DNA of 18,405 nucleotides from Rodentolepis nana (taxonomy: Eukaryota > Platyhelminthes > Cestoda > Cyclophyllidea > Hymenolepididae). The notes under the pieces were generated by a model that saw nothing but the letters and a program-made list of their open reading frames with translations, was not told the origin of the DNA and did not search any database. Location: contig UZAE01000776.1 in assembly GCA_900617975.1 (NCBI GenBank), forward strand, positions 1 through 18,405. The letters are read 5' to 3'. How positions within the stretch are numbered: position 1 is the first letter of the stretch; each line of letters starts with the position of its first letter. Of the stretch, positions 1 to 18,405 are shown in pieces. A program made the translations under genes and the position numbers.

Positions 1-2
1 AT

Positions 3-987
3 GAGAAGGCCTTGATCCTGTATGAGAAGCTACTACGCATCTCCATGGATAAGTTCTTCAGCACATATGAGAATAGACCAAGACATCTGAAAACGCAATC
101 TGGTCTAATACAGAAAGCCATAGAACTGAAGAAAGCATTACAAATCGATAACAAACCAAAAAGCCTCTCTCTCCCCATGAACCCATTAGCAGACACTGAT
201 GTAGTGTGTAGCACCCAACTGCTTGACTACTTCAGGAAGTCAAACACCATTCGTTTCACTTACATAAAAAAGCAAACGTTGGTTTAGATTTCTACTCTGA
301 ACTCTTTTCTTTCTACGCAGCAGTAGGACACAATAGATCCGCTTTTGAAGGAGAAATAGAGGCCATTAGGATAGCACTATGCCAATTATGTTGCCTGGAT
401 ACGAAATTCACCAAAGCGGTGATACTTTCAGACTCACAATCAGCAATAAACTCAATCGGAAACAGAGAGCCTTTCAAAACAGCTGAGATAACGGAATGTA
501 GAAAACTCTATGAGCTGCTGAGAGAGAAAAACAAAGCGCAGTCCTACAATGGATTCCTGAACACTGTGGCATTAAAGGCAATGAGCTTGCTGACACACTT
601 GCTAAGAAGGGGACAACGATTTTGCAATGCATGGACCAGCCGATGTCTTTCCACACAATGAAGGCCTTAATCAAGAGAGGATTCAAGACCTCAAGGTGCA
701 ACGAACTCAAAGCTCGAACAAAGGAGAAACAGTGGACAGTGACACTCCCCGATATAGCCGACTGGCCAAGAATCGAAGCCGTTGCTAAGTTTAGACTACG
801 TGCCGGACACGATTGCCTGGCAAAAATCCTTCACAGATTAGGCGTATACACTCAACCCACATGCCCTGTATGTAACCTACAGGAGGAAATGGAGAAGACC
901 CACCTGATTCGGTGTCCAGCCCTGAAGACAATGACGGAAAGCCAGAGATACTGGGAAGCAAGAAGACAGCTAATGAGCAGCTATTAA
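3..987 (+). pseudogene. LINE ORF2 C-terminal fragment: RT end, RNase H, CCHC tail; frameshifted
   Basis: Three frames must be joined. Positions 3 to about 270 (frame 3) encode a region typical of the end of LINE reverse transcriptase (EKALILYEKLLRISMDKF). From 281 (frame 2) RNase H begins, with the Glu motif FEGEIEAIRIAL and the Asp motif LSDSQSAI. From about 541 to 987 (frame 1) come the last RNase H motif (HCGIKGNELADTLAKKG), then GHDCLAKILHRLG, then a Cys-x2-Cys...His-x4-Cys tail (CPVCNL...THLIRC). The first RNase H aspartate (the usual TDGS motif) is missing, apparently lost near 240-280. A 1-nt frameshift lies near 535-541. The copy is therefore inactive. RNase H in this class removes RNA from the RNA/DNA hybrid during target-primed reverse transcription. 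Clade assignment is tentative; identity as a LINE ORF2 remnant is secure. Confidence 0.9.
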
Positions 988-1032
988 TTAACTGCTATAC
1001 ATGTACCCCCCCCCCTACCCATGGAGGAAGCT

Positions 1033-1080
1033 GAAGTCAGAGCTTAAGGGCTAATGATAAATGTCATAAAGCCTGCCATT
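1033..1080 (+). repeat. LINE 3'-UTR tail shared with the SINE family
   Basis: This 48-nt segment lies 46 nt after the LINE stop codon. It aligns with the 3' ends of the five SINE copies: after the common GAAGTCAG and a 2-nt gap, 33 of 38 positions match the SINE consensus, ending in GCCTGCCATT. In LINE/SINE pairs such a tail is the site recognised by the LINE reverse transcriptase. The sequence between the stop codon and this tail does not look like the SINE body, so it reads as LINE 3' UTR and not an inserted SINE. A degraded SINE remnant cannot be fully excluded. Confidence 0.75.
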
Positions 1081-1090
1081 CGAACAAAAA

Positions 1091-2844
1091 TATTAACAAT
1101 AAGCCATGGAAGATTACTGTCCTACAACGCACTAAAATGAGATAATGGGTACAAGTGAATGATCAAAATGGAATCCAAAGTGTGGCTTCCAAGGGGAACA
1201 GCAAACGAAATGAAATCAAGGTAATATCGGGTTAGTCGTAGTTTCAAATGATGGAGGGTTCCCTTTAAGGCATCCATTTATTCAGTCTCCATTATTGTGG
1301 GTGGAATTGTGTTGGACCGGCTTAATCTTTGACTGTCGGAGGAATGTTGTACACTATTTAAACTATAAGAGAATTGAGTTGCCATTTTTCTGATGGAATA
1401 TAGTTTTGTTAGGCATAAATCAACTCTCCAAAAGCTCATTTTATTTAATTAGATCAATGGATTTCTGATAGCATACTTTATCACGATTTTGAAGTTCGCT
1501 CAACAATTGATTATGGAAATTCGAACCATGCGCGTATTATCATAGCCATATGTAAGTAACTATGCCTGACACAGTCTTTTAAACTACAACAGAGTTCACA
1601 AGATCTCACAAGCAACGTAAAATCGTATAAAAATTTATTTTGTGCATTTAATTTCTAATGCCTTTTCAACCTTTTCTTTGAAGGAAGCTGAAGTAATATG
1701 GTTACAATAATTTTAATGATATTTTACGCTATCACCATCACCTAAAAGCCGATAAATCTCTTAGGTGGAAGAAAACTACAGCTTTCTTTTGTTATCACTG
1801 AAAGTAATTACATTTCAATGATTATTAAACTCTGAATTCATTTAATCAAGTGAAATGATTGCTTACAACAAATTATAAACCACACTAAATTCTACAGGAA
1901 ACCTCACATCTAAATTTATCCTTCCATGTAGAATTTCGTCTTAAGCACCACATGCAGTTTTCTCTTTCATTCACGATTCCATTTAAATATTCAGGAAAGT
2001 AGTCAGATTACTGATTCGTTTTTGGTCTTCCCCTATTTTCAGTCGGTAATTCCTCTAAAGATATTCCACCCAGCGTTCGTTGTGAGAACTTTAAAAGTGT
2101 ATTTATAAGTGTTTAAACCGAATCAGAGATGACCCAAAACCTTAGTTAAACTGAAATACCAAAAGAAATGAATGCCAATTCGGAATTAAAAGCAAGAATG
2201 ACCTGGAGACGAGTTTCACTGAGAGCCAAATTCGATCAAACTTGTAGTCCCATATTCAAATCATGCGAATACAGTCCCATGCCAGCCAATGAGTTCTCTT
2301 TTAAGTGACTAAGATATGTTTAGGTAATTGAAGTGATCCAATGTGAGTTTAACAGAGATGTGACATAAAAGAGCAAATTGAGCTTGTGAATTTTTTTTGT
2401 TTCAACTGAAAATATTAGTAAGTCATTGTACTAAACTAAGCAAATGCTAAAACACTTAATAAAGTATATTGTTTTGCTCTAATTCTTTCAAAAATTGAAG
2501 CTCAATAAAGTACCTTGAGCTGTTCTTTGTTAAAATAACTCAGATGTCCTTTGAACATCCTTTTCCACTTGCAAAGTCCATAAAGTACTGGAGAAGTTCA
2601 TTCAAAGCATCAACTTATTTCTATCTATTGCATTAAAAATATAGCTCGCAACTTTTAAATTGAGATCCAAATTAAATCTTTTAATCGATACCATGCAGAT
2701 TATGTGCTAAAAGGGTAGTTCAATTACCGAGTTTTCACTCTTATGTTACGTGCCCCGGCATATCTACATTTCTTCAGTACTCCCTCGCCCATTTTTAGAT
2801 CCTTGTGGCCTGTCTTGTTACTCAGGTGTGCATCTTTAGTTTTA
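1091..2844. other. AT-rich intergenic stretch, no gene seen
   Basis: No ORF of coding character, RNA gene or repeat copy was found here. The sequence is AT-rich, with frequent stops in all frames and homopolymer T and A runs. Confidence 0.6.
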
Positions 2845-2857
2845 ATGATTATTAAGT

Positions 2858-3188
2858 GGGGTGTACAATAGATTTACCTCCACGTGGTGCACCCTGGGCA
2901 ACGTATTCTCATACGGCAAAAGAGTCTATTAACCGGCAGTTGACTTCTCACTTCAAACTACCATCACCCCACTCTATAACATATTCAACTACTTCCACAG
3001 TACTCACCTCACATTTTTTTCTACCTTTGCGTCTGCCCGTTTTACATCCTTGAAACACTCTTCTATCCCACCACCTCCTCTCAACTTGTTTCACTTGGAT
3101 GTTCCTCATCTCCTCAGTGAAGTCTGAAGTCAGCTAAAGGGCTAGTGATAACTATCAAAACGCCTGCCATTTGATATCAATAAAAAAA
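2858..3188 (+). mobile_element. SINE copy A, full length, diverged target-site duplication
   Basis: This 331-bp copy starts with GGGGTGTACAATAG. It has the head containing CCACGTGG and GGTGCACC, the second head module (AACCGGCAGTTGACTTC), a pyrimidine-rich body, and the LINE-like tail ending CGCCTGCCATTTG plus an A-rich end. Flanking 13-mers at 2845-2857 (ATGATTATTAAGT) and 3189-3201 (TTGATTACCAAGT) match at 10 of 13 positions, as expected for an old duplication. An apparent 65-codon ORF starting at 2856 is read through the SINE and is not a gene. No clear tRNA-, 5S- or 7SL-like promoter was seen in the head. Confidence 0.85.
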
Positions 3189-3201
3189 TTGATTACCAAG
3201 T

Positions 3202-4102
3202 TACCATGGGAGACACGGCAACTTTTAAAATACAGCAATGATAATCATAAAATGTAGTTCTTTGAATACTTCAATTTGTTATGCTTTTGTTATGGCCTAA
3301 TTGGTGGGCGCGATGCAGGCAGAATTTATCAGCTGCTAATAAAATTGGACGTCTTTAAGAGGCATAAATATGCCATCTATTGACATTCAACGACTTTTCT
3401 CATCTTATATAACTGCCAACGGTAACGTTCAAAATTCGCAACTTTATGAAAGTAAACCTTCCTAGCCGAATTCCTACTTTGAAAATGATTATCAAGCCTC
3501 AAGTTTTACGTTCAGCAAGAAAAGAATGGCGATTTTGGTATCTTGGGCCAATTGCTTTTATTACGAGGGTCAAATTAAAACTGGTGCTTTTTATGTTCAC
3601 TAGTTCTTCACCTACCAACCCTTTAGAGGACTCAGTTCAGCCAAGTCTTCGTTTTTTAAGAAGCACCAATGGTATTGACCTGCAATGTTGGTTTGGAAAA
3701 GTGGAGGTTTGCTTGTGTCTGCGTTTTTGAAGGCCCGGAAATTCGCAGACAATTTCGCACTTATTAAAGAAAATTTGTTCTCAAATTTTTGCTTTGTTCA
3801 AACTATTCACAATTAGAACCTACTACATAGGCTACAGATATAGGATTGTATTGCCTTCTAATAGAAAAACTCTCCATTTTCAAAGATCCAATCGCCTGAA
3901 TAATGACTATTAGTATTAAATGTTTAATAAGTTCAAGACATTTATCTAAAGTTTAAATGAACACAAAAGCCAATTGGATTGAAAAAAGATGGTATATTTT
4001 TAGCGTTAGTGCATGCAAATTGAGGAAAATGCAAAAGTTGTGGAACGTGGGGAGTAAGGCGACAGTAGGGAGAGAATTTGAGGACAATTGGACTATTTTT
4101 TT
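3202..4102. other. Intergenic region downstream of glycogenin, no gene recognised
   Basis: It contains a 94-codon plus-strand ORF (3446-3730) with no recognisable domain and no supporting splice or promoter evidence, so I do not call it. On the minus strand an ATTAAA hexamer (plus-strand 3923-3928) lies about 175 nt beyond the glycogenin stop codon and could serve its polyadenylation, but the evidence is weak. Confidence 0.5.
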
Positions 4103-4291
4103 CTATTTCTTCTTTTCTAGGGATTTTTCCAACTTCTCCTTGATTTTCTCGAAACGCTCACTTTCGGTGTAGTCAATTTCTCCACGCTCCCATTTGGCCA
4201 TACTTTTGCCCGGTGGGCTTGGATCACGTTGCATATTCACTATCGGTCCGTGCGTCACTTCCATTTGCGCGAGTTCTCCAACTCTGCCGGT
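4103..4291 (-). CDS. GYG: glycogenin exon 5 (C-terminal tail and stop)
   Basis: 189 nt. The acceptor is TCCGCGCAG, and the reading frame is phase 0, consistent with exon 4. It encodes a short linker ([15 protein letters not shown]), the conserved tail [20 protein letters not shown], a Lys/Glu-rich helix and TAG at 4103-4105. In the family this tail binds glycogen synthase. It is GC-richer than the flanking DNA. Confidence 0.9.
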   Translation of the reverse strand, partial: TGRVGELAQMEVTHGPIVNMQRDPSPPGKSMAKWERGEIDYTESERFEKIKEKLEKSLEKKK

Positions 4292-6809
4292 CTGCGCGGA
4301 TGGATGAAATGTGCAGGATTAAATGATAAAGGAAATTTATGTTGATCGAGCCAAAAAAATGACTCTTATGACTAGACAGAAAGTGCAGCATTCGATTACA
4401 TACACACTCCTGTTGCAATTATTTAATATTTTTAATCATTTCTGAGACTGAAATATTTAAGAAAATGGAAATAAATTATTGTTAATTATGGTTGAGAGTC
4501 ATAAATTAAGTAATCGCTTTGGTAGTCATTTCAGCAATAACTTTTAATTAAGTTTTTGATATTCTGTTTTAAGCAAACTAACTTATTTTGCCCACTCGAA
4601 CAAATAAGAAATTCGGTGAAAATACACATTATCAACATCGCTAGCATTGAAGCTCTTAACTTAGGGCTTAATTTAAAGGATGTGATAGAAGAAATTGAAC
4701 AAAATTAAAACTGTAGCGATGAGGAGAAATTTATCGGAAATGTAAAATGTTGATCCAGACGGTGGAACGTATCCGGTAAAGGAATACAGATCTCCCCAAT
4801 TAAAATATAAGCGCAAACTTAATGGCTACCGAGACTGGTAATTATTCCTATTATTATGGATAAATTTTTGAGATAATAGATAATCAATATAAGTTGCTTA
4901 GTTTCAATATTGGCGGTTGGTGAAATTCAATATTATTAATTTCATTAAAAAATATGAAATATACCACCTTACCACTTTTGGCTCATTTTCACATTTTATT
5001 TCTGTCTCCATATCTAAAAGTTCAAAGGTCAATTTATAAAGTGCAAATAATTTAAAGCACACATTTTTTTCGGTTAGAAGTGCTACAAATCTAATCTTAC
5101 CGGCTTTCGATTTCGGCTAAAATGGAAATGTATTTGTGTGTCATTATGGAAATAGTAAATCAATTGACAATGACATAAGTGAGTTTATAATTTTCAAAAG
5201 GCAATGCCCAATTAAAGATGATTTAAGTCATATTAATTAAAAAGTTTTGCTGATACATCTTGCTTTCTATGCATAATCGGCTTACGAATGACTTTAGAAG
5301 GATAGGCTAGTGAAAGCGTCTATATCTCCTAAAGTCGTCTAGACAATCGTTTTCCAACCCGTTCCTTGAATACAGAGGTAGCATGATGGAGCGTTTCAAA
5401 CTGAATTTAGACGCAAGGGTTGTTTTTAAGTACTACGGGCAATTATAAATAGGAAGTGATGTCGAAATCTCTAAAATTAACCAATGCAGACATAAACTGT
5501 TGAATAAAAATATTGGATCTACATTTTTAAGTCTTAAGTATGAAATGCTGTCTCTTAACAACGAATTATAAGCCTACATAAGTTTATACTATGGAGTAAA
5601 ACTGGTTGGGCTTCTACTTTACGTTTGCCTATTGATAGACTCCGAATGCTTTTCTATTGTTCATAATTGTGCCTAATTTTACTTTACCATAAGAAATGGT
5701 GACACAACTTGTTGTGTAATCTCAAGACCAGGGTTTGAAAATGCATACAACAACAATAACAACTCTTATTCATCTATTTGAAATGGTTCTAGATTGAAGG
5801 TTAAGCGGGTAAAATATAAGTGTAGACAACTAACCCAAAATGATTTTATTTGAGGTTGAACTTCGGTGAGGAAATAATGCCACCAGAGATTTAGGAACCT
5901 CAGAGATTGGGGATCGATATATTCACGAATGTTCAAGCCACCTGTATGTTTATTAATGGAATATTTCCAGGGTTTATTTTGTCCAATAAAGTGAATAACG
6001 CGAACACTCCACCCAAAATTCTTGAGAGCCGGCAAATAGGTATAGAAGGTGTGGGTACAGCAGTTATCGGTGTATGGCAGTCGATGCTTTGCCCCTTGTA
6101 CGCGCCAGTGAGGAAAAAATGCATTAAGAAGTCCCTAAATCAGAGTAATTGTTAAATATCAATGGGATATTAGAGGTCTGGTGGATGAAATGAGATATAT
6201 CTAACCTGATCACCCCCATCGAAGCTGCCTTCTTTAAGCGCAAAATCTAGCAGAGCCCGGTAGGTGTCCAAGCTTGGCGTGAAGACGAAAACACCTGAGT
6301 TGAAGCAGTCAGGCCATCCTGGATCCGGAGCGGCAGTGATCTCCTCCCCTTTAAACATGTCATCAATATTTTGGATAACCATTGTATCAGCATCCATGAA
6401 GACACATTTAGTGTATTGTTTCAGACGCCAGCAATGAAGTTTTGTGAAGGTGACACCGAGATCAATTCTTTTAAGGAGTTTCAAGTTTTCCTCATCTCTG
6501 CTATCAAGCACATCTACCATGACAACTTCATCGAAAGCCTGCCTAACTACCTCCCTATTTATGATCACCGAGGATAAGAAAAGAATATGACAACTTACAC
6601 GATGGGATTGTCGACTGTGTTAGTAACCATGCAGACAATCTTTTTGTTCGTTTTTGTATGCCTTAAGGAGGCTGCCAGAACCATGGCTCCCACAGCGTAT
6701 TCATTACTTGTTGCCAAAGTGACAAAAGCCTCAGTCACTAAAATGGAAAGATAGGGTTTTGAAATTGAATCAAAGTGGTAATTTGAGGTATGAGAATTGG
6801 AGACTCACT
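4103..6809 (-). CDS. GYG: glycogenin (self-glucosylating glycogen primer), five-exon model
   Basis: Glycogenin is the GT8-family glucosyltransferase that attaches glucose from UDP-glucose to its own tyrosine and extends a short chain for glycogen synthase in the cytosol. The joined exons are 6809 (the A of ATG), 6599-6737, 6206-6554, 5835-6134 and 4103-4291. They give 978 nt, or 325 residues, close to the roughly 330-350 of animal glycogenins. The N-terminus reads [15 protein letters not shown]. The metal-binding DxD motif (FMDADT) is at about residues 98-103, [14 protein letters not shown] at about 124-137, and FDGGDQG at about 158-164. The acceptor tyrosine context FYTYLPAL puts the acceptor at about Y194. 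KPWKYS and FLNLWWHYF follow. The C-terminus ([10 protein letters not shown]...) matches the glycogen-synthase-binding tail of the family. All junctions obey GT-AG and keep phase. The linker after exon 4 is shorter than in mammals, so a missed small exon in the 1.5-kb intron is possible. Confidence 0.93.
4292..5834 (-). other. glycogenin intron 4 (about 1.54 kb)
   Basis: It is bounded by a GTTAGT donor and a GCGCAG acceptor. It is far longer than the other three introns (44-71 nt). No SINE copy was found in it. I searched the minus strand for a missing linker exon and saw no convincing one. Confidence 0.7.
5835..6134 (-). CDS. GYG: glycogenin exon 4 (acceptor tyrosine and LWW region)
   Basis: 300 nt, phase 0 at both ends. 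The acceptor is TCTGATTTAG and the donor is GTTAGT. It starts [10 protein letters not shown], continues through [12 protein letters not shown] (self-glucosylated tyrosine), [14 protein letters not shown] and FLNLWWHYF, and ends IKSFW. Confidence 0.95.
6206..6554 (-). CDS. GYG: glycogenin exon 3 (catalytic core with DxD)
   Basis: 349 nt, from an acceptor after AAATAG to a donor GTTAGA. It encodes [17 protein letters not shown] through [11 protein letters not shown], the DxD motif (FMDADT), [24 protein letters not shown] and GSFDGGDQ. It is the best conserved part of the gene. Phase is 0 at its 3' end. Confidence 0.97.
6599..6737 (-). CDS. GYG: glycogenin exon 2 (N-terminal nucleotide-binding strand)
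   Basis: 139 nt. It begins with TG of the split start codon and ends with the first two bases of a Val codon before GTAAGT. It encodes [18 protein letters not shown] and onward to NTVDNPIV, the Rossmann-like N-terminus that contacts UDP-glucose in the family. Intron 2 downstream is only 44 nt (6555-6598). Confidence 0.92.
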
Positions 6810-6830
6810 TTTAATGTGTCTGCTCTAGTA
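6809..6830 (-). CDS. GYG: glycogenin exon 1: short 5' UTR plus first base of the start codon
   Basis: A donor at 6808 (AAAA then GTGAGT) follows an A at 6809. The next acceptor (CCATTTTAG) is followed by TG ACT GAG, so splicing creates ATG ACT GAG, the expected family start (Met-Thr). The transcription start near 6830 is inferred from a TATA box about 30 nt upstream. The exon would be only about 20 nt. A cDNA is not available to confirm it. Confidence 0.6.
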
Positions 6831-6852
6831 ATTCACACCACGAGGGCACCTA

Positions 6853-6860
6853 CTTATATA
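6853..6860 (-). promoter_or_regulatory. TATA box of the glycogenin gene
   Basis: The minus strand reads CCTATATAAGTAG here. It lies about 50 nt before the exon 1 donor and about 30 nt before a plausible start site near 6830. Spacing and orientation fit a focused RNA polymerase II core promoter. It is inferred by position only. Confidence 0.6.
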
Positions 6861-9064
6861 GGCTTTGTATGCATCGCTGAATAAAACGATAATGTCATAT
6901 TAAAATTTCCAATTCCTTTATTTATTATTTCGAATATTTAACTTTTTCCAAATATTTACTTGAAATTTTAAACTTAATAATATATGTAAAAAATAATATA
7001 CAATAGTTTTAAATAGTAATTTCATGCATGCTTTCAGTTTATTAAGACGCATTTGTAATTTGTTACCTTATGACAAACTATATGCTTTTAAAATTATTTC
7101 CGTAGTGTTTACATTAATCCAAAGTATTTCGCAACTAAATAAAATTTCATTTCATCTTACAATCTAATAGAAGCGGGCTCTTCACCAATTGTTTTAAATT
7201 GCAATTTTATACCAACATAGCTTAAGGCGCAGCAAATAATTTTGGAAACGTCTAAGCATTTGGCATATCGATTTAATTAGGCGGAACATATTTTCCATTA
7301 AAATCACTATCGAATGCATTAGGAGCTGGTGTTTTATAAAATGGAAAAGACAATATTTGCCGACAGAGCGAAAAACTACAAATCCTTTGTTAATTGCATT
7401 GCTTATTCCACGGAGTGCTCTTGTGGCTTATTCCCTGTGTCAAACTTTTGCCTTAATGCATGACAAAGTTGAAACACAATGACATTTTGCTTCAAATTCA
7501 AGATACTCGGTCCGATGGGATATTGATTTTCATTAAGGTTATCTGAGTGGGACCTAAGATCAAAGGAATGATTGCTTTTGGCCTATGTGTGGATATTACC
7601 AATACTTTCGGTGAAGTAGCAACACAAAGTTGCTTAGGTCGTTCCGCACAAGTAGTTTTTTCTTCATATGTTTTACGATCATGAAATTCTGTTGAAATTT
7701 CTCACATTGAAGTGTAGATAGGTGCTGTATCTCATTAAGGGGAATATACGCATGACTTGATTCCTATTGTCTTCAATGCATTGGATGGACATTCTATTCA
7801 CGCAAAGTTAGGAAGAATGAGGAGATTTGTTGAGAGCATTAGACAATTTAAGGCAAATAAAATCCCATTTTTAGCGAAAATTTCGCATTTCTTCTCAACC
7901 CGAAACTTTAAAGTGAGGTTTTTAAGGCATCCGCTGAAAACTCTAGAGGAATAATTTAATTTAAATTCTCTTTGAACTTAGGTATATTGTTCCCTCCTTT
8001 TGATCCCTCTTTCTCTCCCATATTTATTCAAGTTACCGACATAGTTGACTGGGAATTTTCCTTTGCTCTGGAGCGTTATGGCTACTTTCATAATTTATTT
8101 TATAAATGATAAACTAATTGCGAAAAAAACACATGTTTCGGCAGTGCATATCAAATTTAAGCACATTGAAGGCGTTGGAAGTGTAAAAACGAATGCAAGT
8201 TTTGCTAACAAGACGTATGAAAATTTGAATAGTCGGCCGGAATTATGATAAGGCAATATCTAATTTAAAAGTGAGACAATCTGGCTTGAAAGTGCTTGAA
8301 AAAATTTATTTTATAAAAGTTGTCGCCGCAAATGTGTATAAGACGAAAAGATTTATGACACGAAGTGAGTTATGAAATAGTGAATTTTTACAGTTTTTTA
8401 GCCGTGTTTCATCACATCTTGTTTTTCATCTCTTGAATCTGTTTACTGAATTTCATCACCTCACTCATATTGATTGCCTTCATTTCGATCTTCATGTTCA
8501 TCACTTCACAAGCTGAAAGACCTCAATTTCAAAATTATCTATTCCATCTCAACATTTAGTACAGTGGTTTAGGTGGGCCATAACGGACTTCTTTGATCAT
8601 AAGCTCCATTGCTATTGATTCTTTGAGATGATGCTTTTGAATCATTGGTTGACCGACTTTATCGACGTCGAAATAGAATCTTCCTTAGGAGACCCTGTTA
8701 TTCAAATTGTTATTTTGTCCGATCAGAAAAAATGCATTCCATTCCATAGTTAGTAATGTCAAGTGAAAGATATGTTATCAAGTATTGGTAAGTTAACTTT
8801 GCTAAATGTGCTAATCGCACGATTTCCTGACTTAGCCTGAGAAGTACTTCTATCGAGACGTTTCACGTTGCCGTTTGTTTGTTTGTTTCTTTTTTCAATT
8901 GTTCATTCAATCATATTGTTTAACCATAGAGGGCCTGACGAAATTTATGGGGGAAAATAGTGTGAAGATTGCTCATTATTCACTGCCAATCGAGAAAATA
9001 ATCAACTATGGAACCAAATTTGCGAAAATTTTCAGGAATGGGAAAAAATCTTCCATTGGAGACA
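6861..9064. other. Upstream intergenic region, no gene recognised
   Basis: AT-rich DNA beyond the glycogenin promoter. Short ORFs at 7757-7954 and 8045-8248, and one that starts at 8875 and runs into SINE copy B, show no known domain. A minus-strand Met/Lys-rich open stretch at 8412-8512, preceded by a possible splice acceptor, is too short to call. Confidence 0.5.
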
Positions 9065-9079
9065 AAATCAACATATCAT

Positions 9080-9382
9080 CATTTCAAGTGGCAGGCGTTT
9101 TGATAGTTAATATTAGCTCATTAACTGACTTCGGGCTTCACGGAGGGAAGGAACATCAAAGTAACAGAAAGTCGAGGGGTGGGGCACAGATGTAAAAGAG
9201 ACAAACAGAAGCAAAATTAGAGAAAAGGTAAGATGAGTACTGTTAAAGTGGTTGAATATGATATACACTCGGGTCATGGTAGTTTGAAGTGAGAAGTCAA
9301 CTGCCTGTTAATAGACTCTTTTGCCATATGAGTATACGTTTCCCAGGGTGCACCACGTGGAGGTAAGTCTATCGCACACCCC
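9080..9382 (-). mobile_element. SINE copy B, full length, exact 15-bp target-site duplication
   Basis: This 303-bp copy has the standard order on the minus strand: GGGGTGTGCGATAG start, one CCACGTGG/GGTGCACC head unit, one TTAACAGGCAGTTGACTTC module, a pyrimidine-rich body and the LINE-like tail. The duplication AAATCAACATATCAT is exact at 9065-9079 and 9383-9397, so this is a fairly recent insertion. It interrupts a plus-strand ORF of unknown meaning that begins at 8875. Confidence 0.92.
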
Positions 9383-9397
9383 AAATCAACATATCAT

Positions 9398-10440
9398 GAT
9401 ATTGGGTATTAAGCTAATTTTGCCCATAGGGTCACATTGACATTACCAGGCCATCCTCTTTTTCAGACTCCTATAAAATTTTTCTCCCCTTCAGTTGTAA
9501 CGTGTAAACCGGATCTCCACTCTGAGCCATCAATTCCATATTAACTTTGAAATAAACTCTGGTAGTTGAGTTTGAAGCTTTACATTATTTACTCTTTGTT
9601 CTCTTGTTTCTGTTCAATCGTCCAATAGAATTCTAGACCATCTCCTCTTACTTCTCTTCCGGTAGTTAAGAATGCAATACATCTAGGTTTAATTAAAAAA
9701 CCCGCGCTACCTCCCCCGTTGCTTTTACTGTAAGGCATTTATTCGTTAATATAATAGATTTTCCTTTCGATAATTGGCCAGTGACAAGCTATTCACAAAC
9801 AAAGAGTTTGAAACTACTTCCATTGATTTAAACTTAGATTTCATTGAAGCTTCCTGTGGTTTCAGTCTGTTTTCTTTCTTTCAAGTTCTCGCTGCTGAAA
9901 TTTAAAGTTTAATAAATAGATTACATACTTATTAGAGGCGTCTAAAGTCGATATTTTTGGGTTCAGGATTTGCTTGATGTGGTGTCTTGGAATGAGCTGG
10001 GCAGCTAACCAGTTTGTGATGTTTCAAGTAAATGCCTTTTCCCAGCATCATATGTACCCAAGGTCTTCTGTGGGTTCTGGTTCAAGCATAGTTTCCTGAT
10101 TTTAAAGAAATTCCCTTTCCCAGGTCCTCCATGAGTGTGTGTTGGACGAGAAGGAAGATAACCGATTAAATCCTTAAAACTATCAAGAAATTTCAGTTAT
10201 ATTTGCTTTGGAAGTGGTGGCTAATTGTCCTTTTAGCGGCACAGACAATACTTGCTTATCTTTTAACCAATTCATTAACGTTGTCACCTTCTAAGCACAT
10301 TGTGAAATTATTACTATCTGGAAGTTGAAATTTTCAAAAATAAGCCCCATAAGATAAATAAATTTGAATGACTTAGAGGAAGAAGGAGGGAGTTTATTCG
10401 ACGCTTTTGACAAAAATGGAAGTATCTGAGATAAGGATAT
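9398..10440. other. Intergenic stretch, no gene seen
   Basis: AT-rich DNA between SINE copies B and C. No sustained reading frame, RNA gene or repeat copy was recognised. A slightly GC-richer patch at about 9960-10140 has stops in the frames I checked. Confidence 0.5.
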
Positions 10441-10453
10441 ATATTTGAAGAAC

Positions 10454-10777
10454 GGGGGTGTGCGATAGACTTACCTCCATGTGGTGCATCCTGGGCAACG
10501 TATAATCATACGGCAAAAAAGTCTATTAACTGGCAATTGACTTCTGACTTCAAGCTACCATAACCCCACTGTATGTCATATTCCACAATTTCCACAGTAC
10601 TCACCTCACCTCTGTCCCTACCTTTGTGTCTGTCTGTCTCCTCTTCATCTGTGAATCACTCTTTTGCTCCCCCTCTCGAATTTTTCTCACTTTGATGTTC
10701 CTCCCTCTGTAAAGCCCGAAGTCAGCTAAATGGCTAATGATAACTATTCAAAACGCCTGCCATTTGGAATAATAATA
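10454..10777 (+). mobile_element. SINE copy C, full length, exact 13-bp target-site duplication
   Basis: This 324-bp copy begins GGGGGTGTGCGATAGACTTA and ends CGCCTGCCATTTGG plus an (AAT)n-like tail. The duplication ATATTTGAAGAAC is exact at 10441-10453 and 10778-10790. The simple-repeat 3' tail, variable-length duplications and absence of terminal inverted repeats identify the family as a retroposon and not a DNA transposon. This copy defines the 5' end of the family most clearly. Confidence 0.95.
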
Positions 10778-10790
10778 ATATTTGAAGAAC

Positions 10791-12557
10791 AAAAGAGCTA
10801 ACGAATAGGAATAACTCCAGTTTTGGAGTTGGGCTGAATTTTTACTCTCATCTCAATAATAATTACAGATGCACCTCAAAATGATTTAAGGTGGTTCCAG
10901 TGCTGAAATGTCCCAAGGAATTGGATAGAATCGCTAATTTTACCAAGGAAAATCAGCATTATTTTGAATTAATTTCTTGTTATAACTGAGTTTTATAAAT
11001 TTTTTTCCTATTGAGAGGTCAATTACCGGTTTCATAACATAGTTTCATAATTTCAAATCACTCAATGGCGTCTGGAAAATCGGAATATTGAAAGAATTCA
11101 GCCGGAGACTATTCAAAGTCAAGAGAGTGGCATAGATGAATACGATGTTGTCATATCAAAAAGACATCATACACCATATAAATTCGCGGGAGTTTTGAGT
11201 TGCTCTTTCTCTTCTAAAGGCAAAGTGCTCACTTTAGACTTCCGAAATGCCCCAAAGCTACATTTTTGTGATTTTTTGCCTTCTCTCATCTGAAAAACAA
11301 ACACAAACACAAGAGCATTAATCAACTCTTCCTAATTAAATTTTCCATCTTAAAATTCATCCAATTTCAAGGCTGTTTTATGAGCTACTTAGAAACTCTT
11401 AATCTTTAAGGGTAGGAACCTCCTTTGACAGCGCAAATTTTGAAAGACCTGTCCCTCACAAACTTTGGGAGCTCCAAACAAAAATTCATAGCCTTTGATT
11501 CCAGATTCATTTGCCATGAGCCCCTGTGTGAGTTCATAAGCAGGATATTCAGTTATAACTTCTGCGAAGCCACGAAGTTTCCCTTGTAAGGCCCGAAACA
11601 GGCAGATGACATTGTCAAAAGCCAGTATTGCTCATGTTTAATTAATAAAAATTCACCTCCTCTTCTTCCAATAATACTGTAGAATTTATGTACTATGGTG
11701 GTTGCATAAAGTGAAGCCTAACTTTATTGAATCCAGTGGGATCAACTAAACTTTCGAGTTGACCAGCCAACTGGGATGAATTAAAAAAAGATTAGTTATC
11801 AATTTATAACTGCCTAACTAAAGACCAATTAGCTCTAGAAAGGTGTAAAGCAAGAGTTAATGGGGATGCCCAAGAAATAACCTGAAATTTCAAAAGCCTA
11901 TTCCAAGGATATTGCTTATATAAAGGTTCTCATCTTTACGTAAAATTATAGCTTTGAAGACAATCGGAGTACAACAAGAATTCAAGCAATGAAACTAAGA
12001 TTTTCAAATGAATCAGTGGTTATTGGGTCCACCTTCTTTAAAAAACATTAATAGGGTCGTTAAAAAGAGTGTTGAATGCATGAATTCGAATTCGAATTGA
12101 AATTTTCAAGGTCGCTAAGCGGTATATGCATCAGTCAATTAATTTTAAAGACTTGGAATCTTTCACCTCAGATGATTTGATCTAACAGTGCTTTAGAACT
12201 TAAGCTAGCTTCGTCTGATTAGGTAGGAATCGTATAGTTTTTGAGTTTTCTGAACTAAGATTTGCTATATTTTTTGTCAGCAATTTTTACTATCTTAATT
12301 GAGGAATTAGAAAAATCCGAAGAGCCACCATTTTTGTTGGCTCTTTGACAATTATATGAGGTAGATCGAGACTATTGGCTGAACCAGAGTTCTCTACGAT
12401 TAGAAAGAAGCAATCAAGAATTCCACAACCTGGATTTTAATCTAATTGGCTTATGACCACGAGAAAACTGTCCTCTCTAAGAGGACCATCAGATATTATA
12501 TCACTGCAGCATCTGATAACACTGGTGTGATTTCACTAAATAATTTTAAATTTAACT
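10791..12557. other. Intergenic stretch with one coding-like patch
   Basis: AT-rich DNA between SINE copy C and the expanded copy D. The only notable item is the minus-strand open frame at 11389-11631, listed separately. A TATATAAAGG at about 11914 on the plus strand has no convincing ORF downstream. Confidence 0.5.
11389..11631 (-). CDS. unrecognised coding-like open stretch, possible terminal exon
   Basis: The minus strand is open for 80 codons, from just after a TGA (11632-11634) to a TAA at 11389-11391. It begins AILAFDNVICLFRALQGK and later reads GYEFLFGAPKVCEGQVF. Composition is protein-like and visibly GC-richer than the surroundings, unlike other chance ORFs here. The first Met is internal, so it would need to be an exon or a degraded retrocopy. 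A possible acceptor (CATGAG) at its start lacks a good pyrimidine tract. I do not recognise the family. No neighbouring exon was found, so a pseudogene or chance ORF remains possible. Confidence 0.3.
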   Translation of the reverse strand, partial: AILAFDNVICLFRALQGKLRGFAEVITEYPAYELTQGLMANESGIKGYEFLFGAPKVCEGQVFQNLRCQRRFLPLKIKSF

Positions 12558-12591
12558 TGTTCCGTATATTTATTTATTTCAAATGTCAGGC

Positions 12592-12660
12592 ATTTTGATA
12601 GTTATCATTAGCCCTTTAGTTGACTTATTTGATAGTTATCATTAGCCCTTTAGTTGACTT
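12592..12660 (-). repeat. 34-bp tandem duplication of the SINE tail in copy D
   Basis: The plus strand reads ATTTGATAGTTATCATTAGC and onward to GTTGACTT twice in succession. The unit is the same LINE-like tail found once in all other copies, so it is a local duplication specific to this copy. Confidence 0.85.
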
Positions 12661-12816
12661 CGGGCTTCTCAGAAGAGAGGAACATTACAGTGAGAAAAAT
12701 TTGACAGGGGGAAAGAAGAGCGATTCACAGATGTAACAGACAGACAGACAGACACAAAGGCAGAGAAAAGGCTAGATGAGTACTGTGAATGGTGTTGAAT
12801 ATGACATACAGTGGGG

Positions 12817-13000
12817 TTATTGAAGTTTGAAGTCAGAGGTCAACTGCCAGTTAATAGACTTTTGGTAGTTTGAAGTCAGAAGTCAACTGCCGAATAATAA
12901 AGTGGCAGTTTGAAGTCAGAAGTCAACTGTCGGTAAATGTAATTTTGCATAGTTTGAAGTCAGAAGTCAACTGCCAGTTAATAGATTTAGTAGTTTGAAG
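12817..13000. repeat. cluster of second SINE-head module (TTTGAAGTCAGAAGTCAACTG)
   Basis: Four to five tandem copies of the module (TTTGAAGTCAGAAGTCAACT, then GCC), which other SINE copies carry once. Further clusters lie at about 13425-13605, 13935-14050, 15890-16003 and 16325-16400. Linkers such as GAATAATAAAGTGG and GGTAAATGTAATTTTGCATA are repeated with them. Confidence 0.85.
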
Positions 13001-13213
13001 TGAGCATACGTTGCCCAGGGTGCACCACGTGGAGGTGCCGTTTGAGTATACGTTGTCCAGGGTGCACCACCTGGAGGTAAGTCTATCGTGAGTATACGTT
13101 GCCCAGGGTGCACCACGTGGAGGTGTATGAGTATACATTGCCCAGGGTGCACCACGTGGAGGTAGCCGAATGAGAATACGTTGCCCAGGGTGCACCACGT
13201 GGAGGTAAGGTGT
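12839..13213. repeat. higher-order duplication H1, second copy at 13444-13818
   Basis: About 375 bp recur 605 bp downstream, apparently without differences, including non-unit linkers. This shows a block duplication and not unit-by-unit slippage. The copies diverge after GGTAAGGTGT (next GTATAC versus GAGTGTAC). Confidence 0.85.
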
Positions 13214-13291
13214 AGTATACATTGCCCAGGGTGCGCCACGTGGAGGTAAGACCGTATGATTATACGTTGGCCAGGGTGCACCACGTGGAGG
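13037..13291. repeat. higher-order duplication H4, second copy at 15046-15300
   Basis: About 255 bp recur at an offset of 2009 bp. The block starts at GCCGTTTGAGTATACGTTGT and ends after the GGCCAGGG variant unit. Its first ~175 bp recur six times in the array. Confidence 0.8.
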
Positions 13292-13641
13292 TACCTTTTG
13301 CCATATGTGGATACGTTGCCCAGGGTGCACCACGTGTATACGTTGCCCAGGGTGCACCAGTTTGTTTGCCGTATGAGTATACGTTGCCCAGGGTGCACCA
13401 CGTGGGCAGTTTGAAGTTGGGTGATGGCAGTTTGAAGTGAGAAGTCAACTGCCAGTTAATAGACTTTTGGTAGTTTGAAGTCAGAAGTCAACTGCCGAAT
13501 AATAAAGTGGCAGTTTGAAGTCAGAAGTCAACTGTCGGTAAATGTAATTTTGCATAGTTTGAAGTCAGAAGTCAACTGCCAGTTAATAGATTTAGTAGTT
13601 TGAAGTGAGCATACGTTGCCCAGGGTGCACCACGTGGAGGT

Positions 13642-14177
13642 GCCGTTTGAGTATACGTTGTCCAGGGTGCACCACCTGGAGGTAAGTCTATCGTGAGTAT
13701 ACGTTGCCCAGGGTGCACCACGTGGAGGTGTATGAGTATACATTGCCCAGGGTGCACCACGTGGAGGTAGCCGAATGAGAATACGTTGCCCAGGGTGCAC
13801 CACGTGGAGGTAAGGTGTGAGTGTACGTTGCCCAGGGTGCACCACGGACTCTTTTGCCGTGTATACGTTGCCCAGGGTGCACCAGTTTAGACTTTTTTGT
13901 CGCATGAGTATACGTTGCCCAGGGTGTACTCATGGTAGTTTGAAGTCAGAAGTCAACTGCCGGTTAATAGATGGTAGTTTGAAGTGAGAAGTCAACTGCC
14001 AGTTAATAGTATGGTAGTTTGAAGTCAGAAGTCAACTGCCGGTTAATAGGGATCTTTTTGCCTTATGAGTATACGTTGCCCAGGGTGCACCACATTTTGC
14101 CGTATGAGTATGCGTTGCCCAGGGTGCACCACGTTTGTTTGCCGTATGAGTATACGTTGCCCAGGGTGCACCACGTG
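13642..14177. repeat. higher-order duplication H2, second copy at 15596-16131
   Basis: About 536 bp recur at an offset of 1954 bp. The block includes the odd unit ending GGGTGTACTCATGG and a three-copy second-module cluster. By eye the two copies look identical, implying recent duplication or conversion. Confidence 0.85.
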
Positions 14178-14519
14178 ATAGACTTACTTGCCGTATGAGT
14201 ACACGTTGCCCAGGGTGCACCACGTGGTGCCTTATGAGTATACGTTGCCCAGGGTGCACCACGTGGAGCCGTATGAGTAAACGTTGCCCAGGGTGCACCA
14301 CGTGGAGCCGTATGAGTATACGTTGCCCAGGGTGCACCACGTGCCGTTTGAGTATACGTTGTCCAGGGTGCACCACCTGGAGGTAAGTCTATCGTGAGTA
14401 TACGTTGCCCAGGGTGCACCACGTGGAGGTGTATGAGTATACATTGCCCAGGGTGCACCACGTGGAGGTAGCCGAATGAGAATACGTTGCCCAGGGTGCA
14501 CCACGTGGAGGTAAGGTGT
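14133..14519. repeat. higher-order duplication H3, second copy at 15386-15772, partial third from 14931
   Basis: About 387 bp recur at an offset of 1253 bp. The inner part, starting at TGCCTTATGAG, is present a third time from 14931. H3 partly overlaps H2, so the array grew by nested rounds. Confidence 0.8.
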
Positions 14520-16249
14520 AGTATACATTGCCCAGGGTGCGCCACGTGGAGGTAAGATAGCTTGAACTCAGAAGTCAACTGCCGGTTTATAGACTTTTTT
14601 GTCACATGAGTATACGTTGCCCAGGGTGCACCACGTGGAGGTATGTCATTTGAGTATACGTTGTCCAGGGTGCACCACCTGGAGGTAAGTCTATCGTGAG
14701 TATACGTTGCCCAGGGTGCACCACGTGGAGGTGTATGAGTATACATTGCCCAGGGTGCACCACGTGGAGGTAGCCGAATGAGAATACGTTGCCCAGGGTG
14801 CACCACGTGGAGGTAAGGTGTGAGTGTACGTTGCCCAGGGTGCACCACGGACTCTTTTGCCGTGTATACGTTGCCCAGGGTGCACCAGTTTTTGCCGTAT
14901 GAATATACGTTGCCCAGGGTGCACCACGTGTGCCTTATGAGTATACGTTGCCCAGGGTGCACCACGTGGAGCCGTATGAGTAAACGTTGCCCAGGGTGCA
15001 CCACGTGGAGCCGTATGAGTATACGTTGCCCAGGGTGCACCACGTGCCGTTTGAGTATACGTTGTCCAGGGTGCACCACCTGGAGGTAAGTCTATCGTGA
15101 GTATACGTTGCCCAGGGTGCACCACGTGGAGGTGTATGAGTATACATTGCCCAGGGTGCACCACGTGGAGGTAGCCGAATGAGAATACGTTGCCCAGGGT
15201 GCACCACGTGGAGGTAAGGTGTAGTATACATTGCCCAGGGTGCGCCACGTGGAGGTAAGACCGTATGATTATACGTTGGCCAGGGTGCACCACGTGGAGG
15301 CCGTATGATTTTTGCTGTATGAGTATACGTTGCCCAGGGTGCACCCGGACTCTTTTGCCGTGTATACGTTGCCCAGGGTGCACCAGTTTGTTTGCCGTAT
15401 GAGTATACGTTGCCCAGGGTGCACCACGTGATAGACTTACTTGCCGTATGAGTACACGTTGCCCAGGGTGCACCACGTGGTGCCTTATGAGTATACGTTG
15501 CCCAGGGTGCACCACGTGGAGCCGTATGAGTAAACGTTGCCCAGGGTGCACCACGTGGAGCCGTATGAGTATACGTTGCCCAGGGTGCACCACGTGCCGT
15601 TTGAGTATACGTTGTCCAGGGTGCACCACCTGGAGGTAAGTCTATCGTGAGTATACGTTGCCCAGGGTGCACCACGTGGAGGTGTATGAGTATACATTGC
15701 CCAGGGTGCACCACGTGGAGGTAGCCGAATGAGAATACGTTGCCCAGGGTGCACCACGTGGAGGTAAGGTGTGAGTGTACGTTGCCCAGGGTGCACCACG
15801 GACTCTTTTGCCGTGTATACGTTGCCCAGGGTGCACCAGTTTAGACTTTTTTGTCGCATGAGTATACGTTGCCCAGGGTGTACTCATGGTAGTTTGAAGT
15901 CAGAAGTCAACTGCCGGTTAATAGATGGTAGTTTGAAGTGAGAAGTCAACTGCCAGTTAATAGTATGGTAGTTTGAAGTCAGAAGTCAACTGCCGGTTAA
16001 TAGGGATCTTTTTGCCTTATGAGTATACGTTGCCCAGGGTGCACCACATTTTGCCGTATGAGTATGCGTTGCCCAGGGTGCACCACGTTTGTTTGCCGTA
16101 TGAGTATACGTTGCCCAGGGTGCACCACGTGGGCAGTTTGAAGTACCAGTCAATAGACTTTTTTCCGCATAAGTATACGTTGCCCAGGGTGCACCACATG
16201 GAGGTTGTAAGTACACGTTGCCCAGGGTGCACCACGTGGAGGTATGCCG

Positions 16250-16500
16250 TTTGAGTATACGTTGCCCATTGGTTTATAGACTTGTTTGCCGTATGAGTAT
16301 ACGTTGCCCGTCAATGGGGTGATGGTAGTTTGAAGTGAGAAGTCAACTGCCACAATGGGGTCATGGTAGTTTGAAGTTAGAAGTCAACTGCCTTTAATAG
16401 ACTTTTTTGCCGTATGAGTATACGTTGCCCAGCGGTTTATAGACTTTTTGCCGTATGAGGTCACGTTTCCAAGCCATTTAATAGACTTTTTTGCCGTATG
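16250..16500. repeat. degenerate edge of the array
   Basis: Units here are truncated inside the core (GTTGCCCATTGG, GTTGCCCGTCAATGG, GTTGCCCAGCGG) and joined to second-module pieces. Diverged edges next to a homogeneous centre are typical of arrays maintained by unequal exchange. Confidence 0.7.
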
Positions 16501-16585
16501 AGTATACATTGCCCAGGGCGTACCACGTGGAGGTAAGTCTATCGCACACCCCACATTGCTATTTTCACCACGTGTTCCGTATATT

Positions 16586-17760
16586 GAAGGGAAAATGTTT
16601 GCTTGGATTACATCTCTAGAATTGAAATTTGATATTAAAGACCTGCAAACCTCTTTCCATTCAATGAGCTTTAATTTGTAAGCAATGCAATTTTTACTCG
16701 TTTTCTTCAATCGATACTATCTTTAGCTAGATTGATTAATTAAATATATGCTCCTGTCAGTCATATCTATTTGTTTCATAGCAAGAAGACGTTTCAAATT
16801 AATGAAAGTGATATTCAATCAAATGGTCAAAATTGGTTTGGGATAGATTTTATCATCAAGGAGTGGTTTTTAAAGCACATAAGTGTTGAAACCTTAAGAT
16901 TTTCAGATTTTTACCAGAGAATGCTATTCTTACCTCATTATGCGATCCGTTTAAACCCCGGTTTGGCATAAACTTGATTATTTTGCACTTTTTCAGTCAA
17001 AAGAGTAAAAGCACGATAGAATTTTATATGATAATCTCTTATCCCAAAAGGTTATACTAAGTTTGATAAATCAAATCTAACAAATGAATTAATTTTAGTC
17101 TAATCTAGCTTTAACTTCCGTTCGACGTTATCTTAATGACATGTCACGTGATATGCAGCTTAAAATTGGAAGGCGGACTTATCCATCGACTGTCTAAGGA
17201 ACTCTTCCTCCTACACCAATCATCATTCAAGTGTAAAGCTCCTATTAAGAATGGTACAACTCCTTAGAGTGAAGTTCTTATTTACTTCAAAGAATGAAAT
17301 TGAACAAGTCTGTCTACGAAAACAAGTCCTGCTTAACATGGAAATCAGCCTTGTAAATAACAATTCATTTTTTCCTTTCTTTAAGTGCTTTGGAAGACAA
17401 ATGATCCTAAATGATATTCAGCAAAGATACGAATTTTAATAACTTCTGAGTGCGAGGGAGAGCTTTACTAAAACTAAAACTGTGGTAGATTATAGAGAAG
17501 TGATAGTTCAAGCCTTTGCTTTCTTTCGATCTTGGATTCCAATTGTGACAATTCGGATACGCCTAGAAATGTCATATTTATCTCCTTTTATCGCCTTTGT
17601 TGGTAGTGCTGTTAGCCAATAACTATGGTACCTGCAAAAAATTCTGGTTCCGATTAACTATCTCCCCCCCCCGGTTCGCTCACCAAAAGACGCAACAATT
17701 TGATGGCACTGAAAAAAGCCTATATCTTCCTGACAAATGACTTTATTTCACCCACCTTTG
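16586..17760. other. Intergenic stretch, no gene seen
   Basis: AT-rich DNA between SINE copies D and E. Short plus-strand ORFs at 16771-16971 and 17251-17439 have no recognisable domain. A run of ten C lies at about 17664-17674. Confidence 0.5.
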
Positions 17761-17774
17761 ATTAATGTATCTTA

Positions 17775-18088
17775 TTTATATCAAATGGCAGGCATCTTGA
17801 TGGTTATCATTAGCCCTTTAGTTGACTTCAGGCTTCACAGAGTTGAAGAAGCATCAAATTGAAAAAGTCGACAGGGGGGGGGGACAGAAGAGTGTTTCAA
17901 AGATGTAAGAGACAAACAGAAATGTAGAGCAAAGGTGAGGTGAGTACTGTGAAAGTGGTCGAATATGGCATCGAGTGAGGTGATTGCAGTTTGAAGTGAG
18001 AAGTCAACTGCCAGTCAATAGACTTTTTGCCATATGAATATACTTTGCCCAGGGTGCACCACGTGGAGGTAAGTCTATCGCGCACCCC
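17775..18088 (-). mobile_element. SINE copy E, full length
   Basis: It has the same architecture as copies B and C: a start complementary to CGCGCACCCC at 18088, one head unit with CCACGTGG and GGTGCACC, one second module (TTGACTGGCAGTTGACTTC), a body with a C-run, and the LINE-like tail ending near 17775 in ATTTGATATAAATAAG. Flanks (TTAACTTAATATC to the right, TTGATTAATGTATC to the left) may be a decayed duplication with small indels, but this is not certain. An apparent 62-codon ORF at 17897-18085 is SINE sequence. Confidence 0.85.
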
Positions 18089-18103
18089 TTAACTTAATAT
18101 CAT

Positions 18104-18405
18104 ATTTGAGAGAGTTTCGCTATGATTGAGGCGCTGTTTCGTGTTCACAAAATAACCAGTTAGAAAGTGCGATTTGCCTGACCTCTCCACAATGACCCTC
18201 TGAAAATGCTTCGCACATTACGAGGAAGAAGAAAAAAGAAGAAACACAAAATTCAAAATTGGTAAATACTTCTAAACCTCTTCACTTGAAAACAAAGTAT
18301 TAATAGGTAGAACAACTTCAAAAAAGTGGTAACTCTGCAGTTTACCCTTACGCTCTGACTCTTATTGCAAAAAAATTTTTGTAGCAATTCTATTAATTAT
18401 AATAA
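18104..18405. other. Window end, no gene seen
   Basis: About 300 nt of AT-rich DNA with an AGAAGAAGAAAAAAGAAGAAA-like purine run near 18222-18245. Nothing else is supported. Confidence 0.5.

Follow-up and report, generated by a model that had tools for sequence, protein, structure and literature searches.

How does a retroposon whose ordinary copies span little more than 300 bp come to be 4,002 bp long, and has it grown where it stands or arrived already enlarged? The question is raised by an element of the dwarf tapeworm Rodentolepis nana, found on the minus strand at 12571–16572 of contig UZAE01000776.1, positions 1 to 18,405 of which form the window analysed here (an 18,405-nt stretch, contig C776 in searches of the 107-Mb, 4,701-contig assembly). 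A first-pass annotation of the window had described the element as a short interspersed nuclear element (SINE) comparable to the hominid SVA, its own head having become a minisatellite, and had offered two histories for it, one expanded locus or the founder of a mobile family. The comparisons reported below make it very probable that the element belongs to a non-autonomous R. nana retroposon derived from a long interspersed nuclear element (LINE), consisting of a ribozyme head, a body and a LINE tail and including lineages with arrayed heads, of which the window copy would be a truncated daughter.

Anatomy of the window copy and its single-head relatives

The element, with its ribozyme end at 16572 and its tail end at 12571, is bracketed by an exact 13-bp target-site duplication, TGTTCCGTATATT, present at 12558–12570 beside the 3′ end and at 16573–16585 beside the 5′ end, as had been reported; the 13-mer has no further occurrence in the window at up to two mismatches. 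Of 20,000 random 20 × 20 comparisons of window sequence, 71 reached 13 bp, and exact flank matches of at least 10 bp, low-complexity matches included, were found in 24 of 71 real flank pairs versus 12 of 475 mismatched pairs. The left flank occurs once in the genome, ruling out a segmental duplication of the locus; an empty site sought through this flank was not found, the flank being unique.

Read from its 5′ end on the minus strand, the element opens with 20 nt upstream of the ribozyme (16553–16572), followed by the sole complete predicted ribozyme of the copy, here termed Rz-m (16481–16552), whose predicted cut lies directly upstream of G1 at 16552. An array of ribozyme fragments interspersed with second-type units and higher-order repeats (12823–16480) leads to a SINE body (12665–12822) and a LINE-derived tail (12580–12660), the latter containing a perfect tandem duplication of 34 bp × 2 at 12594–12660. 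The count of about 65 head units was borne out by script (65 cores, 64 of them in the array), and mapping of the units by BLAST yielded one body together with 70 matches of the first type and 17 of the second. The G+C content of the element is 50%, versus 39% for the window.

Four relatives in the window carry one head each, again as first annotated, and span 302–318 bp in the BLAST map: at about 2856–3190 on the plus strand (ribozyme at 2858–2929), at about 9082–9386 on the minus strand with a 15-bp target-site duplication, from 10455 to about 10770 on the plus strand with a 13-bp duplication, and at about 17778–18088 on the minus strand; no target-site duplication was seen for the first and last of these. 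Identity among the four is 90.8% in the ribozyme region, 82.5% in the body and 85.9% in the tail.

The predicted ribozyme head and the putative LINE partner

An Rfam search of the window (E up to 1) returned 12 matches, 11 of them to full-length models of two hepatitis delta virus (HDV) ribozyme families and distributed over all five elements, the best scoring 41.3 bits (E 9e-5); Rz-m scored 34.1 bits with RF02682 and 32.3 bits with RF00094, and two weak matches of 27.3 and 27.9 bits fell inside the array. The Rfam alignment places P1, P3, L3, the GGGCAAC joint and P4 in register, P2 is present as AUAGACUU with AAGUCUAU by script check, and the nested double pseudoknot of HDV-like ribozymes, comprising P1, P2, P3, P1.1 and P4, was found in register. 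Pairing is kept in 92.7% of cells across 48 of 64 distinct copies, a set from which 16 array-internal, gapped or worn copies had been removed by hand, and in this hand-picked set the G1–U pair is kept in 42 of 48.

The starts of dispersed copies point to the same position. SINE 5′ ends fall exactly at G1 in 19 of 39 other scored copies and within −1 to +2 nt of the predicted cut in 32 of 39, while LINE 5′ ends fall within −4 to +1 nt in 33 of 39 other scored copies, a tally drawn from 40 scored copies each of 6,130 SINE and 1,996 LINE candidates and subject to overrun of BLAST ends. The SINE head is predicted, from sequence and pairing, to be an HDV-like self-cleaving ribozyme, and cleavage in the worm elements would occur at G1. 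A tRNA-derived head was rejected, ARAGORN reporting 0 tRNAs in the window in a search that did not extend to boxes A and B.

Both ends of the SINE are shared with a LINE, the 3′ part of which occupies 1–1093 of the window on the plus strand as a putative partner, with RNase H reading frames and a SINE-like tail; its last ∼600 bases are 91–92% identical to 39 other scored places. LINE copies encode a reverse transcriptase (PF00078), an RNase H (PF00075) and an endonuclease (PF14529). The RNase H frame is 90% identical to R. nana proteins across 71% of its length, with shorter matches reaching 97%, and 72% identical to a Hymenolepis microstoma protein across 90%. The LINE 5′ end is the same predicted ribozyme as the SINE head: SINE starts, in four copies, match LINE starts with 78–92% identity over 71–109 bases, and SINE ends match LINE ends with 73–83% over 43–96 bases. 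No match to the SINE body was found in any LINE piece compared, the LINE copies having gaps. Of the features of a LINE-derived short element of the SIDE/NARTc type, a LINE-homologous 5′ end, a LINE-homologous 3′ end and insertion with a target-site duplication were found, and the LINE encoding endonuclease (EN), reverse transcriptase (RT) and RNase H is probably the helper of the SINE, as judged by these shared ends.

The LINE copies compared contain Ns, so that their interiors may be incomplete, and no intact full-length LINE was among those read; single Ns or N runs lie within L032, L035–L040, L043–L045 and others, as though assembly gaps hit the high-copy LINE interior. A pattern of the SINE tail (up to three mismatches) gave 11,002 genome matches, 5,550 and 5,452 by strand, against 0 for its control. 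At L030:5465–6655 a LINE 3′ part lies within a SINE body, with head and body before it and the SINE tail after it.

Array lineages and their spread

The main array unit, ∼39–42 bp long, spans L3 through the catalytic C and lacks the 5′ strand of P1. Only the 5′-most of the 65 cores of the window copy (16530) is P1-capable, with 7 of 7 pairs and a normal spacing; none of the other 64 exceeds 4 of 7, and the single-head relatives in the window show 7 of 7 in four of four. Since P1 cannot form, the array fragments should not cut RNA. The same loss recurs across 21 sources, where P1 with G1 is kept in 48 of 65 single-core elements versus 1 of the 209 cores lying inside a group and 10 of the 31 that open one. 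Cores within 200 bp of each other were counted as a group, so that long arrays are split, and the arrays share ancestry. The absence of P1 from array units may reflect a filter, or the accident of which fragment duplicated first. The array probably expanded at the DNA level, by analogy with SVA/LAVA, for which repeat remodelling at that level is reported in the portion of PMC4432496 consulted.

Other multiplied forms were encountered among the loci examined. At L015:6306–9399 and L028:1119–2004 the multiplied parts are second-type units and body pieces (38 and 8 second-type matches, respectively), not the first-type unit, and the middle of this SINE family thus expands in more than one way. 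Head-repeat matches recur at an exact 704-bp spacing on contigs C26, C432, C689, C1125 and C1853, a higher-order repeat in other array copies. A ribozyme-like unit in which the first G is replaced by T lies downstream of Rz-m at L022:6998–7087, L023:6091–6181, L024:6466–6541, L025:7221–7306 and L027:1550–1626.

Rz-m, in which P1′ is altered yet still pairs, is found exactly at 25 loci in the genome. All 25 fall among 33 loci with AATAGCAATGT preceding (pattern, up to one mismatch), and because this sequence precedes Rz-m there, G1 is the element's own 5′ end at none of them. The 60 bases upstream of Rz-m are identical in 16 of the 18 copies read, the exceptions being L014 and the window. Array blocks identical to the window extend over 1,184 bp on C4236, 759 bp on C1667, 746 bp on C1710 and 525 bp on C1496.

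Target-site duplications of at least 10 bp were identified in 10 of the 18 Rz-m copies read. Exact duplications of 10–13 bp were found by script in seven copies (the window, L009, L014, L022, L024, L027 and L028), and others by eye at L015 (15 bp with one mismatch), L017 (11–12 bp) and L026 (13–14 bp), the element end being placed at the second tail in L017 and L026. L021, arrayed but without an exact Rz-m, has a 15-bp duplication.

The earlier statement that the window copy keeps the family start holds in part only. Its 5′ end lies 20 nt beyond G1; the inner 12 nt are of the family type and recur unchanged at 17 further loci read, in which the repeat extends farther upstream, and the outer 8 nt are only similar. 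The position 16572 is accordingly a 5′ truncation point inside the repeat, not the family start, which rules out a full-length element. A CA at the 5′ junction may be common to target and element; microhomology has been postulated at R2 5′ junctions in the part of PMC3774820 consulted. On these sequence comparisons the window copy is to be read as a 5′-truncated daughter of an already spread array, a member rather than the founder of a mobile family.

A second lineage is marked by a head lacking G1. In L017, L048 and L049, each with several ribozyme pieces, the same 41 bp lead into an outermost ribozyme of sequence UGGGUGUGCG, from which the first G is missing. A 39-base pattern of this upstream stretch recurs at 90 places (89 exact) and a 50-base pattern across the joint between upstream stretch and ribozyme likewise at 90 (82 exact), with ∼30 additional upstream bases common to 34 places of the lineage. 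These data fit a loss of cleavage that lets upstream sequence travel; plain DNA duplication may instead be responsible.

Compared with the 5,550 forward and 5,452 reverse matches of the SINE tail, patterns of the array lineages are unevenly distributed by strand (10 forward and 33 reverse, 55 and 114, 21 and 69), an imbalance that the assembler may have introduced. Elsewhere in the window, 6170–6760 on the minus strand carries exons from a gene of glycosyltransferase family 8 (PF01501), presumably glycogenin, with an apparent intron of ∼45 bp by eye.

Origin, alternatives and known counterparts

The element would be composed of the first ∼97 nt of the EN-RT-RNaseH LINE, containing the predicted ribozyme, a body of ∼150 nt and the last ∼45–95 nt of the LINE. 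The ribozyme would cut a longer transcript directly before its own first base, setting the 5′ end of the element, while the LINE protein would bind the RNA by its tail and use target-primed reverse transcription to insert it. A fragment spanning L3 through the catalytic C and lacking the 5′ strand of P1 would, in certain lineages, have multiplied at the DNA level; the middle between ribozyme and tail would be free to change, and as this stretch seems dispensable, arrays would be copied along with the element.

Several observations weigh against this reading. The HDV scores lie under the Rfam curated cut-offs, the window best reaching 41.3 versus 44 and 39.7 versus 50 bits and the L032 LINE head 41.7 versus 44 bits; and covariation on the 48 copies equals that of shuffles, the copies being too alike. 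Rz-m looks complete, yet was evidently uncut in the copies that extend past it, and likewise in the RNA of the window copy; a half-head just upstream might compete for its strands and prevent the cut. Duplications among the 18 Rz-m copies are short at L023 (7 bp) and L025 on C1667 (8 bp), none was seen at L010, L020 and L011 on C4236, and L013, L016 and L019 were not assessable. Finally, exact repeats inside the array reach 538 bp, so that its length or order is possibly wrong in a short-read assembly.

The scores, the lack of covariation beyond shuffles and the uncut Rz-m would also suit a non-cleaving head, either a fossil sequence or a promoter in the DNA, in which case the 5′ ends at G1 would mark the start of transcription, and Pr77 of trypanosomes is described as both promoter and ribozyme in the part of PMC4035085 consulted. 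Against this stand the retention of P1, P2, P3, P4 and G1–U in most copies (42 of 48 for G–U, in the hand-picked set) and the higher identity of the ribozyme region than of the body in the four window copies (90.8% versus 82.5%), and such a head is considered unlikely. Assembly could have contributed more than an error of length, an array being collapsed, extended or made chimeric by the joining of reads from many similar arrays: the internal exact repeats and the blocks identical elsewhere exceed short-read lengths, and 16 of the loci examined contain single Ns or N runs. The window itself has no N, the exact 13-bp duplication brackets the whole array, and shorter arrays with duplications exist at other loci, leaving an artefact quite improbable.

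Growth at one locus, in which an ordinary single-head SINE inserted and its head became a minisatellite in place, draws on stretches of 538, 387 and 375 bp that are repeated exactly within the window array and indicate recent duplication in it or its source. As the sole cause it is contradicted by the identical blocks at other loci, the longest of 1,184 bp, the exact Rz-m at 25 loci, the separate target-site duplications of other array copies and a start inside the repeat, and this first of the two histories originally offered is now very improbable. Tandem ribozyme repeats are also a mark of retrozymes according to the portion of PMC7229834 consulted, and rolling-circle amplification of a self-cleaved circular RNA could in principle have built the array; the array unit, however, does not run from cut to cut, lacking G1, the P1 5′ strand, body and tail, and no hammerhead was among the Rfam matches of the window up to E 1, by which retrozyme identity is rejected and such an origin becomes extremely improbable.

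The LINE-derived retroposon with array lineages accommodates a further, more tentative proposal, in which the ribozyme acts as gatekeeper of element length. Cutting would trim upstream sequence at each jump, keeping heads single, and a broken or blocked ribozyme would make arrays and upstream flank heritable. SVA-like composite families would then arise here through ribozyme failure, with G1 lost, the P1 strand missing or the ribozyme blocked, and two natural experiments would be provided by Rz-m (25 loci, never the element's own 5′ end) and the G1-less head (90 loci, at least 39–41 bp of upstream sequence carried). This proposal is possible but doubtful.

Known systems share parts of this build, as far as the consulted portions of the cited sources describe them. 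Like the NARTc/RIME/SIDER elements and their partners L1Tc/ingi, the tapeworm pair combines an EN-RT-RNaseH LINE bearing a 5′ HDV-like ribozyme with a short element keeping both LINE ends; it differs in phylum, in a body of unknown origin and in having up to 65 cores, nearly all without P1, versus the two ribozyme heads found in tandem in SIDER2 of trypanosomatids (PMC4035085). The R2 SIDEs of Drosophila likewise join a 5′ ribozyme to a LINE 3′ end, are mobilised in trans and have a middle free to change, whereas R2 is site-specific in ribosomal DNA and its SIDEs are rare, the tapeworm insertions being dispersed, with ∼11,000 tail matches and arrays (PMC3414825). SINE-derived satellites of squamates also consist of tandem repeats from SINE parts, although those are satellite-like loci and the tapeworm arrays lie inside copies with target-site duplications (PMC10702118). 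Retrozymes are similarly non-autonomous, with self-cleaving ribozymes and tandem repeats, but use a hammerhead and a unit with the whole ribozyme, in contrast to an HDV-like head and a partial unit (PMC7229834).

SVA/LAVA of hominoids likewise remain mobile while carrying within them a variable-number repeat, its units ∼40 bp long; the tapeworm element has no Alu-like or SINE-R part, uses another LINE and takes its repeat from its own ribozyme (PMC4432496). Among SVA parts a VNTR-like array alone was recognised, no Alu/7SL-type match appearing in the Rfam search, and the LINE proteins are from tapeworms, not from a hominoid host. The original comparison is thus a fair analogy of build that fails by parts and host, and the description as a composite retroposon, non-autonomous, ending in a LINE-like tail, bounded by an exact target-site duplication and bearing an internal variable-number repeat from its own head, is supported. 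The first-pass annotation did not recognise the head as a predicted HDV-like ribozyme common to the LINE, nor the array units as pieces of it. By analogy, the element would work like NARTc/L1Tc and R2 SIDEs with an SVA-like repeat added, and is not an SVA. A search of one literature library gave no paper with both ‘ribozyme’ and ‘Hymenolepis’, and no tapeworm ribozyme SINE among the matches listed.

If this reading is correct, a single genome would hold thousands of single-head copies together with lineages of broken or multiplied heads, and the role of the ribozyme in setting 5′ ends would be testable from copy starts. The tapeworm pair would be to animals what L1Tc and NARTc are to trypanosomes, and the element would add, by a build unrelated to that of SVA, a second example of a retroposon with a travelling variable-number repeat made from one of its own parts; should cleavage be confirmed, the dwarf tapeworm would be a natural source rich in variants of HDV-like ribozymes.

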